DNA of 60,057 bases, from assembly GCA_001771505.1 (NCBI GenBank), contig MEUA01000019.1, positions 1-60,057 of the forward strand, written 5' to 3'. The position numbers were made by a program, and so were the translations under genes. Shown piece by piece: positions 14,184 through 18,015 of this stretch; position 1 is the stretch's first letter; each line of letters starts with the position of its first letter. A model generated the notes under the pieces. That model saw only the letters and a list, made by a program, of their open reading frames with translations, did not search any database and was not told where the DNA came from. The stretch is from a candidate division WOR-1 bacterium RIFOXYB2_FULL_36_35. Its GTDB lineage: Bacteria; Margulisbacteria; WOR-1; XYC2-FULL-46-14; XYC2-FULL-37-10.

Positions 14184-14226
14184 AACCCCGATTTCCTAAT
14201 CGGTAGGGGTGAATAATCGGGATTCA
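14184..14226. repeat. Dispersed AACCCCGATT hairpin repeat, copy 3 (best preserved)
   Basis: AACCCCGATTTCCTAATCGG (14184-14203), then TAGGGGTGAATAATCGGGATT. The first part folds as ACCCCGATT-TCCT-AATCGG with GGGGT two bases further on. It directly abuts the tyrA stop codon (TGA, 14224-14226), so it lies in the tyrA 3' end and could act as a transcript end or a decay-blocking hairpin. Confidence 0.75.
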
Positions 14227-15084
14227 TTTCGAATAATTGGCAAGACTACAACTTTTATCCCTAACAATCTTTGCTCTCTCAATTTCTTTTTTTATAAATT
14301 CAATGTCCCCGTTTTTTATAAATTTTTCAAGAAGAAAAAGAGATGCTTTAAAAGCTTTTATCATTTTCAAAACAGCCTTTTTATTGGTTACAAACATATC
14401 AATCCCCAAAACAGGATCCCCCGAAGCTATCCTTGTGGTATCAAAAAATCCCGAAGCTGCACATTTAAACATAAGCTCTTTTTCAACCTCACCCCCTACC
14501 GCATTTACAAGAGCAACAGCAACGGCAAGGGGCATATGACTTATTGCCGCAACTACAAGATCATGCGTTTTGGGACTGAGCCTTGAAATTTGAGCGCCTG
14601 TCACCTTTATTAACTCTTCTATAGCAAGAGTGGCTTTTTTGTCAGACTTTAAAGTCTCAGTCAATATCCACCTTTTATTGTAAAATAAAGAGGCCTCCGC
14701 CTCTTCAAATTTGACCTTCTCTTTTCCTGCCATAGGATGTCCACCAACAAAAAAAATCCCCTTAGGCATCATCTTTTCGGCACAGGAGACTATTTCCTGC
14801 TTTGTAGATCCGACATCAGAAACGACAGCCCCCTCTTTTAAATGCGGAATAGCTTCTGTTAATATTGGAATAATAAGATTTATGGGGGTACATATAAAGA
14901 CAAAATCAGCAGCCGCAACATCTTTTATCTTGCAAGACCCCTGATCGATAGCCCCCCTCTCCTTTGCCTCAAGAAGGGTCTCTTCTCTCCTTGCGATACC
15001 TATAACATAAAAACCAGCTTTTTTAAAAGCTAAAGCCAACGATCCCCCGATTAATCCCAATCCTATTATTGCGATCTTCTTCAT
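14224..15084 (-). CDS. tyrA: Prephenate dehydrogenase
   Basis: 286 residues. The N-terminal Rossmann fold has GLGLIGGSLALAFKK for NAD(P) binding and FICTPI, followed by VSDVGSTKQEIV and GGHPMAGKE, which are typical of TyrA. The helical C-terminal domain carries SPKTHDLVVAAISHMPLAVA with the conserved His residues, and FFDTTRIASGDP. It oxidatively decarboxylates prephenate (or arogenate) towards tyrosine. There is no chorismate mutase or ACT fusion. Promoter spacing indicates a leaderless start at ATG 15084. It stands alone, divergent from efp. Confidence 0.95.
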   Translation of the reverse strand: MKKIAIIGLGLIGGSLALAFKKAGFYVIGIARREETLLEAKERGAIDQGSCKIKDVAAADFVFICTPINLIIPILTEAIPHLKEGAVVSDVGSTKQEIVSCAEKMMPKGIFFVGGHPMAGKEKVKFEEAEASLFYNKRWILTETLKSDKKATLAIEELIKVTGAQISRLSPKTHDLVVAAISHMPLAVAVALVNAVGGEVEKELMFKCAASGFFDTTRIASGDPVLGIDMFVTNKKAVLKMIKAFKASLFLLEKFIKNGDIEFIKKEIERAKIVRDKSCSLANYSK

Positions 15085-15245: not shown

Positions 15246-15803
15246 ATGTCAGTATCTATAACAGAAATAAGGGCCGGTAATACGTTTGAATACAAAGGGG
15301 AACTTTTTAAGTGTGTTGAATATAACCACATAAAATGGGCCCAACAAGCAAGGATTCGCCTTAAGATGAAAAATCTTCGCACGGGAGCCGTAATAGAAGA
15401 TACTTTTAATGTGGGCGAAAAACTGGAAAAGGTTCACATTGAATATCGCCCCATGCAATATCTGTATAACGACGGTGAAAAGTATAATTTTATGGATCAA
15501 GAAAATTTCAACCAAATAGAACTTACAAAAGAACAGATGGGGGGATCAGCGCACTTTATAAAAGAAGGTTTTATTGTAAATATCGCTTTTTACGAAGCAG
15601 AGCCGCTAGAAGTAAACCTTCCAACCTCTGTAGATTTAAAGGTAACAGACACGGCTCCGGAATTTAAAGGCAATACTGTCTCAGGCGGAAAACCCGCAAC
15701 AGTAGAAACAGGGTATACCGTTCCGTCTGTTCCATTCTTTACAAAAGTTGGAGATATCATAAAAGTTGATACAAGAGACGGAAAATATTTAGGAAGAGCA
15801 TAA
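15246..15803 (+). CDS. efp: Translation elongation factor P with an unusual tip loop
   Basis: 185 residues in the usual three beta-barrel domains: KOW-like N-domain ([19 protein letters not shown]), an OB middle domain ([15 protein letters not shown]) and the C-domain ending [15 protein letters not shown] relieves ribosomes stalled at polyproline. The loop that reaches the peptidyl-transferase centre normally reads like HVKPGKGxAF or HVKxGRGxARIR, with a Lys/Arg at the tip. Here it reads [11 protein letters not shown] (residues 28-38), one residue shorter, with no basic residue at the tip. No EF-P-modifying gene is nearby. accB follows 20 bases downstream. Confidence 0.94.
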
Positions 15804-15823: not shown

Positions 15824-16282
15824 ATGGTAGATTTCGAATTATTAAAAAAGCTCATCGAAATAGTAAAAAACGAAGATATTTCCGGAATTACTATAGAAGA
15901 TAAAGGAACAAAATACGAGATAAGGCGTGAACGAGGAGGTTTAGTCATTCCAACTGCAACAGCATCTGAAACAACAGTAAATGCTAAAAATATTACATCC
16001 GATACCATCAAAAAAGAAGATGAAAAAAATGCAGAAGAAGATTTAATCGCAATAACATCTCCAATGGTCGGTACTTTTTACGCCGCTCCATCACCTGACT
16101 CACCCCCTTTTGTAAAGGTCGGAGATCATGTATCTACGGGAAAAGTTGTCTGTATAATTGAAGCCATGAAACTTTTTAACGAGATAGAATCTGAGATTTC
16201 AGGAACAGTATTCAAAATTCTGACAGAAAACGGAAAACCCGTGGAATACGGTCAAAAATTGATGCTAATCAAAAAAGGATGA
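15824..16282 (+). CDS. accB: Biotin carboxyl carrier protein of acetyl-CoA carboxylase
   Basis: 152 residues. The N-terminal part ([20 protein letters not shown]) is typical of AccB and is followed by a flexible Thr/Ala-rich linker. The C-terminal biotinyl domain ([20 protein letters not shown]) carries the biotinylated lysine K116 in EAMK. It shuttles carboxybiotin between biotin carboxylase and carboxyltransferase for fatty-acid synthesis. AGGAGG lies before ATG 15824. An efp-accB neighbourhood is common in bacteria; accC, which often follows, is replaced here by recJ, joined through a 4-base ATGA overlap. Confidence 0.96.
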
Positions 16283-18015
16283 AAAGGTGGAACTTCTTTC
16301 CCCAAGAAGCTGAAACAAGCTACATCCTGTCAAAAGAGCTGAATGTATCCCCAATTCTTGCTCAAATCTTAATAAACAGAAAAATAACAGATTCACAAAA
16401 CGCCATGGAGTTTTTATCCCCCACCTTAATGAATCTAAAAGATCCTTTTGATATTCCAAACATAAAAAAAGGGGTGGAAAGAGTCGTTTTAGCTAAAACA
16501 AGAGGAGAAAAAGTCGTTGTCTATGGAGACTATGATGTTGATGGCGTAACAGGAACCGCGATATTAATAGAAACTCTAAAGCATATAGGAATAACTCCAT
16601 CATATTATATCCCACATCGTTATGAAGAAGGTTATTCTTTAAATATCAATGCAATAAAAAAATTAAAAGATGAAAAAGCAAACCTTATAATAACTGTAGA
16701 CTGCGGAATTTCAAGTATCACAGAAGTAAAAGAGGCAAATGCCATAGGAATAGAAATTATCATAACAGATCACCATAATGTTCCTCAACAAATACCAAAT
16801 GCTTATGCAGTTATAAATCCCAAAATGATAGAAAAAAACCATCCAAGTCGTGATCTTTCGGGTGCGGGAGTCGCTTTTAAATTTGCCTGGGCGCTCTTAA
16901 GAATTATGGGAGAGACTAAAAGTGATTTTTTAACACAGTTATTGGATTTAGCCGCGCTAGGAACAATAGCTGATGTTGTCCCTCTAACAAACGAAAACAG
17001 AATAATCGCAAAAAAAGGATTATCTATACTAAGAGAAAGAAAAAGAATAGGAACAAAAATTTTAGCTGATGTATCAGGATTGAAGCCGGAAATTTCTATA
17101 AGAGATGTAAATTTTGGTTTGGCCCCAAGGCTAAATGCCGCAGGAAGGCTTAAACACGCTTCTCTTGCAGTAAATTTACTAATATCAAAAACAATAGCAG
17201 AAGCAGAAACTTTAGCAAAAGAGCTAAATAAAGCAAACCTAAAAAGACAAGGGATAGGAGATTTAATGAACAATGAAATTCTTCAAAAAATAAAAAACAA
17301 CAATTTAGAATCAGAAAAAATCATCGTTGTTTCAGGTGAAAGTTGGCATCCAGGAGTTATTGGAATCACCGCATCAAAAATTGTCGACAAATATTATAGA
17401 CCTGTTATATTAATAAGCGTAAACCAAGGGACAGGAAGAGGATCTGCAAGGTCTATCGACAATTTTAATATATTTAAATTATTAGAATCATGTAAAGAGC
17501 TTTTTGTGGATTTTGGTGGACATGAAGCTGCCGCAGGTTTTGTAATTCTTCCAGAAAACATTCCTATATTAAAAGATAAAATTTATAAAGAGGTCTTTAA
17601 CTTAAAAATAGAATATGATCCAAAAATAAATATTGAAACAACAATTCTCCCGGAACAAATAACTTTAAGTTTAATAGAAGAGCTAAAATTGTTGGGTCCC
17701 CATGGTCAGGCAAATCCAATCCCTGTTTTTTCAAGCCACAACCTCAAAATTAGAGAGGGTAAAGTTGTAGGAAGCAATGAAAATCATTTAAAGCTAAAAC
17801 TTTCAAACGGAAAAACAAATCTTGAAGCAATAGGCTTTGGTTTCGGAAAGATGAAAGAGACCATAGACTTTAATTTATCACATGATTTTGCCTACTTACT
17901 GGAATCAAACGAATGGAACGGAATAGAATCTGCTCAGCTTAATCTGGTAGATGTAAAACACTCAAACCAAACATCTTATTCAACTGTAACAGATTTAGCC
18001 AGATTTCTAGGCTGA
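16279..18015 (+). CDS. recJ: Single-stranded-DNA 5'-3' exonuclease RecJ
   Basis: 578 residues. DHH phosphoesterase motifs are visible: [41 protein letters not shown], and in the DHHA1 part [14 protein letters not shown] and [12 protein letters not shown]-terminal OB-type domain follows. RecJ degrades 5' ends in recombination and mismatch or base-excision repair. It starts within the accB stop (ATGA). The last 40 bases are antisense to the end of glmS, so the C-terminus [12 protein letters not shown] is the antisense reading of the conserved GlmS tail and is probably not functionally selected in RecJ. Confidence 0.95.

Follow-up and report, generated by a model that had tools for sequence, protein, structure and literature searches.

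The usual account of elongation factor P (EF-P) centres on a long side chain, positively charged and made by enzymes, which brings order to the CCA end of tRNA-Pro. The lysine-type EF-Ps, typified by those of E. coli and B. subtilis, share with the protein discussed here a three-domain fold and a role as an E-site polyproline factor, and they carry a PGK tip, a seven-residue tip loop and a canonical domain III loop. The tip loop of the E. coli protein is bounded by K31 and A37. The described range is 31-37, with P32, G33, K34, G35 and Q36 (PMC6544042), and loop I of domain III in this protein (G144-G148, perhaps to G151) touches bases 1 and 2 of the E-site codon (PMC11611912). Two further forms depart from the lysine type in length or tip. 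In EfpL the tip is unmodified and the loop is two residues longer than in EF-P (PMC11611912), and EF-Ps with a Gln tip make up 0.6% of the 1166 sequences in one survey (PMC6544042). The arginine-type EF-Ps that function with EarP, known from P. putida and also found in phylum relatives of the organism discussed here, bear a non-proline residue at the -2 position.

The EF-P considered here is encoded in the window, the whole stretch of 60,057 nucleotides that was analysed, where the following features are found.

14224-15084, minus strand: prephenate dehydrogenase-like gene, upstream of efp and divergent; its best NCBIfam matches are prephenate and arogenate dehydrogenases, below cut-off.
15246-15803, plus strand: efp (elongation factor P), 185 aa; an open reading frame with NCBIfam and Pfam matches above cut-off, and the sole copy found in the genome.
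15327-15365, plus strand: beta3-loop-beta4 segment, residues 28-40, one residue shorter than canonical.
15336-15347, plus strand: WAQQ turn, residues 31-34; A32, Q33 and Q34 are invariant in 26/26 clade members.
15669-15692, plus strand: loop I of domain III (residues 142-149, GNTVSGGK), short of the canonical length by one residue; its E. coli equivalent contacts the E-site codon (PMC11611912).
15824-16282, plus strand: accB (biotin carboxyl carrier protein), TIGR00531 above cut-off; a conserved neighbour of efp.
16279-18015, plus strand: recJ, TIGR00644 above cut-off; the next gene downstream.

The gene at 15246-15803 is a true and complete EF-P. Its product scores 213.3 bits against TIGR00038, the NCBIfam EF-P equivalog (cut-off 185.8), a family model that does not require the usual seven-residue loop with a Lys or Arg tip; all three Pfam EF-P domains are above cut-off, and the frame contains no stop and no break. 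Promoter, terminator and repeat scans around efp returned nothing above chance. In the source genome (1.95 Mb in 67 contigs, 96% complete), EFP_N, protein and alignment searches gave a single match; the second canonical EF-P that would have spoken against an unmodified or differently acting EF-P was not found. An AlphaFold2 model of the protein displays an EF-P fold with a mean pLDDT of 84.8, and its top PDB matches are EF-Ps, with TM-scores up to 0.90. Membership of the EfpL/YeiP group was rejected, as the protein reaches only 115.3 bits against a cut-off of 216 and 111.8 bits against a cut-off of 264, and its loop is shorter rather than longer. The window protein may resemble EfpL/YeiP in being a loop-length variant with an unmodified tip, but the loop of EfpL is two residues longer, bears an Arg and mostly belongs to a protein that accompanies a normal EF-P, whereas that of the window EF-P is one residue shorter, bears a Gln and belongs to the only EF-P of its genome.

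The tip loop of the window EF-P comprises the six residues K30-W31-A32-Q33-Q34-A35, with Gln33 occupying the position of Lys34 or Arg where the usual form is a seven-residue loop tipped by either. Alignment with normal EF-Ps, all of which have a loop one residue longer, bears out the sequence-only reading that the loop is short and has lost its Pro/Gly turn. The lack of a basic residue applies to the tip only, as K30 precedes it and R36 or a later basic residue follows it. With W31 and Q33 at the positions of P32 and K34, the loop lacks the tip of the lysine type, from which the protein also differs in its short domain III loop and in a genome with no EpmA or EpmB above cut-off. At the -2 position the window EF-P resembles the arginine type, but its loop is one residue shorter and it has neither the Arg tip nor EarP. 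Among the closest known forms are the surveyed Gln-tip proteins, which likewise present Gln at the protruding position and have no Pro at -2, although the survey describes a loop of seven residues (PMC6544042) and that of the window EF-P has six. A full-length Gln-tip loop is also present in a Chloroflexi EF-P (L089:3282-3833; FRYAQRAA, with the loop YAQRAA). In the AlphaFold2 model the strands 19-30 and 35-43 are joined by the four residues W31-Q34, whereas in a model of an Arg-loop control from the same class (G010), which differs in alignment as well as in sequence, strands 17-28 and 34-42 are joined by five; the hairpin of the window EF-P is thus predicted to be tighter by one residue.

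The remainder of the protein had been taken as normal, wrongly, since it bears a second one-residue deletion in domain III. Loop I of this domain is one residue short in 26/26 EF-Ps with the A-Q-Q tip and in 0/61 other aligned EF-Ps, a count in which the automatic flag identified 25 A-Q-Q sequences and the truncated row L017, which it missed, was added as the 26th from its aligned loop. The C-terminal EF-P fragment of another class genome (G026) has the short loop I as well. Only one other aligned EF-P, from Dehalococcoidales (L078:10001-10549), also has a tip loop one residue short (KMKRTA), but in this protein the domain III loop is normal and an Arg is retained. As the two deletions coincide in the same 26 EF-Ps, with the Dehalococcoidales protein having only that of the tip loop, two RNA-contacting loops were shortened together on one branch: the loop facing the CCA end in the P site and the loop facing the E-site codon have each lost one residue, and both losses are fixed in a lineage-wide subtype.

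This lineage is the class Candidatus Saganbacteria/WOR-1 of the phylum Margulisiibacteriota, of which 31 genomes were searched. An EF-P match is present in 29 of these and a readable loop in 28, G026 being left out of the loop count as it retains the C-terminal part only. The short A-Q-Q loop occurs in 26 of the 28, the window included, so conservation among related genomes, proposed as a check on the WAQQ loop, extends to A-Q-Q, while the position of the W is held by W, A or S. The other two members have Arg loops of normal length (KMARGGA in G010 and KMGRGGA in G012). No EF-P was found in the class genomes G017 and G030, perhaps as a result of assembly gaps, although one of the two is listed as 95% complete. 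In one further genome (G024; L013, and L058:3261 onward) efp and accB read as a single open frame with an ambiguous residue at the junction, which points to a gap in the assembly more than to a fused gene. The named genome-wide scan covers the best 80 of 498 EF-P matches, 62 of the listed loci lying outside the class, and so cannot show that A-Q-Q loops are absent from other lineages; named class loci largely duplicate the class genomes and were not counted twice. Alignment rows were drawn from 37 of these 62 out-of-class loci among the matches listed and from 22 of the 24 EF-Ps found in the phylum outside the class.

Within the clade, A-Q-Q replaces an (A/G)-(R/K)-G-G tip and belongs to the best-conserved stretches of the EF-P. 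The triplet is unchanged in 26/26 members, down to 51% identity, while its Ala is encoded by GCC in 19, GCT in 3, GCA in 3 and GCG in 1, and its Gln residues by CAA or CAG in ratios of 5/21 and 4/22 at the two positions. The flanks vary, with K or R before the triplet (the position of K30 is Arg in 10/26), W, A or S at -2, and A, S or T after it. Invariant residues alongside synonymous codon variation and variable flanks show purifying selection on A-Q-Q. A one-residue deletion in a contig of a metagenome-assembled genome is in principle a common artefact, and an assembly or base-calling error or a pseudogene was accordingly considered; with 26 class genomes sharing the deletion exactly, amid synonymous variation and in a gene free of stops and frame breaks, such an explanation is vanishingly improbable and was rejected. 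The standard loop, which in relatives would have exposed such an error, is absent from all but two of the 28 class genomes with a readable loop, and A-Q-Q stands as a genuine feature. When 87 EF-Ps are placed in a maximum-likelihood tree, those with A-Q-Q (26 proteins) group as one clade with support of 97/98; the two Arg-loop class members lie close to the base of this clade, and a Meiothermus row on a long branch intervenes. The simplest reading of this topology is a single origin of the A-Q-Q loop from an Arg-tipped loop, and since phylum relatives carry AARxNA loops, the step from a basic residue to Gln is short.

Among the known tip-modifying enzymes, the Lys modifiers EpmA and EpmB and the Arg modifier EarP were searched for, and none passes its cut-off in the class: EarP is found in 0/31 class genomes, and EpmA and EpmB in 0/57 of all genomes searched. 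The best EpmB match of the source genome reaches 20.8 bits, and its best EpmA match lies within a 503-aa frame that, judged by its length, is presumably a lysyl-tRNA synthetase. The search proposed at the outset for EpmA, EpmB and EarP therefore supports an EF-P that is unmodified or acts differently, as does the lack of a second EF-P, but the difference is wider than had been envisaged, as it includes the E-site-codon loop of domain III. On this genome content the A-Q-Q EF-P may carry no modification. Elsewhere in the phylum, EarP is present in 8/26 members and directly beside efp in six (G032, G034, G039, G042, G045 and G050, each with an AARxNA loop). These outgroups (L031, L033-L039; EarP in L139 and L140) encode EF-Ps of the AARxNA or AARKEA type with EarP in 8/26 genomes, and Margulisiibacteriota outside the class may represent a non-proteobacterial branch with rhamnosylated EF-P. 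Two of the genomes, G034 (L030/L039) and G045 (L032/L038), encode two EF-Ps each: an Arg-type protein next to EarP, and a second whose loop is of the NHNK(Q/T)(A/G)RG type.

The reach that the tip has lost could instead be restored by a modification that would be new in kind for EF-P, such as one on a Gln amide. Both Gln residues are strictly invariant, the known bacterial systems do modify the tip, and over half of bacteria have no known EF-P modifier gene (PMC6544042). The neighbourhood of efp argues otherwise, as no unexplained enzyme gene recurs there at the 18 named class loci compared: accB relatives adjoin efp at 18/18 of these and recJ relatives lie nearby at 12/18, and with only these and housekeeping-like genes recurring, a modifier encoded next to efp was rejected. 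So was the upstream gene at 14224-15084, given its likeness to prephenate dehydrogenase. PrmC methylates the Gln of the GGQ motif in release factors. Of the 57 genomes, 52 contain a PrmC/HemK gene above cut-off, always as a single copy, which speaks against an undescribed modification and led to the rejection of a duplicated PrmC-type methylase. An undescribed modification of the tip is thus rather unlikely.

Far less probable is a role for a deoxyhypusine synthase (DHS)-like enzyme in modifying the protein at an unusual lysine position, such as K30. DHS-like genes are enriched in the class, with above-cut-off matches in 26/31 genomes, the source genome included, as against 2/26 in the rest of the phylum. 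However, the tip Lys is gone and K30 is replaced by Arg in 10/26 members; four A-Q-Q genomes (G013, G016, G022 and G028) have no DHS-like match above cut-off, while both Arg-loop class members do carry the gene, so that it does not track loop type; and the copy in the source genome falls below every NCBIfam deoxyhypusine synthase cut-off. The copy in G021, which passes these cut-offs, adjoins an agmatinase gene and one resembling adenosylmethionine decarboxylase, the latter below cut-off. Given these neighbours, the scores of the source copy and the lack of fit to loop type, the DHS-like genes are read as belonging to polyamine metabolism, and DHS was rejected as the tip modifier. The DHS-like gene of the source genome lies on contig 37 (L183:4575-5681) beside an ADP-heptose epimerase gene.

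The class seems to have kept its need for EF-P, as ValS retains its PPP and polyproline is not depleted. The ValS motif PPPN(V/I)TG is kept in 30/30 loci read, 19 of them from A-Q-Q genomes, out of 57 genomes with a match. By within-protein shuffling of sampled stretches with crude ORF calling, the observed/expected ratios of PP dipeptides are 1.06, 1.18 and 0.89 in three A-Q-Q genomes, as against 0.97 (G010, Arg loop), 0.93 (G032, EarP) and 0.81 (Firmicutes loci) in the controls, and 0.78 in the pooled named class loci. PPP counts in the three genomes are small and scattered (9, 30 and 4). The sampled stretches show no sign of lineage-specific polyproline avoidance, and a proteome-wide loss of polyproline was rejected as PP is not depleted in them. 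In E. coli, the 9-nt D-loop of tRNA-Pro is a determinant for EF-P, and weaker 13/22 pairs lower the EF-P effect (PMC4890201). A 9-nt D-loop is retained in 4/4 class tRNA-Pro genes found; three of them, two being identical, have the wobble pair U13-G22 at the end of the D-stem, weaker than its E. coli counterpart (L053:16017-16090, L054:17302-17375 and L108:19061-19136), and the gene in L062 has C13-G22. The tRNA-Pro of the EarP-bearing genome G032 (L243:8090-8167) has a D-loop that appears to be 10 nt, where the rule for E. coli EF-P calls for 9. Co-adaptation of ribosomal protein L27 was rejected: among 29 class sequences a pattern could read 24, leaving five unread, and the N-terminus looks ordinary in those 24.

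Beyond these sequence-level facts, we infer that the window EF-P would stimulate Pro-Pro synthesis. An A-Q-Q EF-P would enter the vacant E site beside peptidyl-tRNA-Pro and relieve polyproline stalls without a long modified Lys or Arg and without any known tip modification. Its tightened hairpin would present the amides of Q33 and Q34 for short hydrogen-bonding contacts to the CCA-end backbone, or the tip might act simply by occupying space, while the shortened codon loop of domain III would re-seat the protein or adjust its pose. With no known modifier and no long charged side chain, short-range Gln contacts or the filling of space would have to account for the action of the tip. The proposal of an EF-P that is unmodified, has both RNA-contacting loops shortened and relieves proline stalls by short-range Gln contact or by binding alone has an even chance of being correct. 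Counted in favour of an active unmodified tip are the invariance of A-Q-Q, the paired deletions, the supported clade, the sole EF-P, the lack of EarP, EpmA and EpmB above cut-off, the ValS PPP, the PP levels, the 9-nt D-loop and the predicted fold, and counted against this explanation are the weak U13-G22 pair, the crude PP statistics with their pooled 0.78, and YebC and ABCF, which could possibly carry the polyproline load. The main counter-evidence is that the K34Q variant of E. coli EF-P is inactive, as is G33A, each in a full-length loop (PMC6544042); because the seven-residue loop and normal domain III loop are kept there, the K34Q result does not test the A-Q-Q combination.

The same K34Q variant (PMC6544042) would suit an EF-P that has given up stimulation at the CCA end and persists as an E-site binder only, which would stabilize the vacant E site or the P-site tRNA and leave most polyproline rescue to YebC and ABCF. 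The lost basic tip, the shorter hairpin, the weak D-stem pair in three of the four class tRNA-Pro genes, and the presence of YebC and one ABCF match in the source genome are all compatible with such a retreat. A disused tip should drift, however, and few parts of this EF-P are as conserved as A-Q-Q; YebC is not special to the class, occurring in 26/31 of its genomes and in most control bacteria, and ABCF is found in only 18/31. An EF-P reduced to E-site binding consequently has a minor, though real, share of the probability.

Returning to the active, unmodified Gln tip, a broader reading, somewhat short of an even prospect, would be that these proteins constitute a third EF-P length class, with a tip loop of six residues where EF-P has seven and EfpL nine. 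As the sole EF-P of its lineage, it would support polyproline translation with a neutral, unmodified Gln-Gln tip coupled to a compensating shortening of the codon loop and perhaps to a weaker tRNA-Pro D-stem, amounting to a rewired three-point contact with the P-site tRNA and mRNA. A Gln tip is already known; a limited search of open-access literature turned up no earlier description of the short A-Q-Q loop, of the domain III deletion paired with it or, hence, of the doubly shortened EF-P. In Saganbacteria/WOR-1, EF-P probably assists ribosomes at runs of proline without relying on the chemistry of other bacteria. A shorter, neutral tip in the only EF-P of a lineage that keeps the ValS PPP and ordinary polyproline is a natural experiment on the need for the side chain, and the paired deletion in the codon loop suggests a mechanical linkage of the two RNA contacts.
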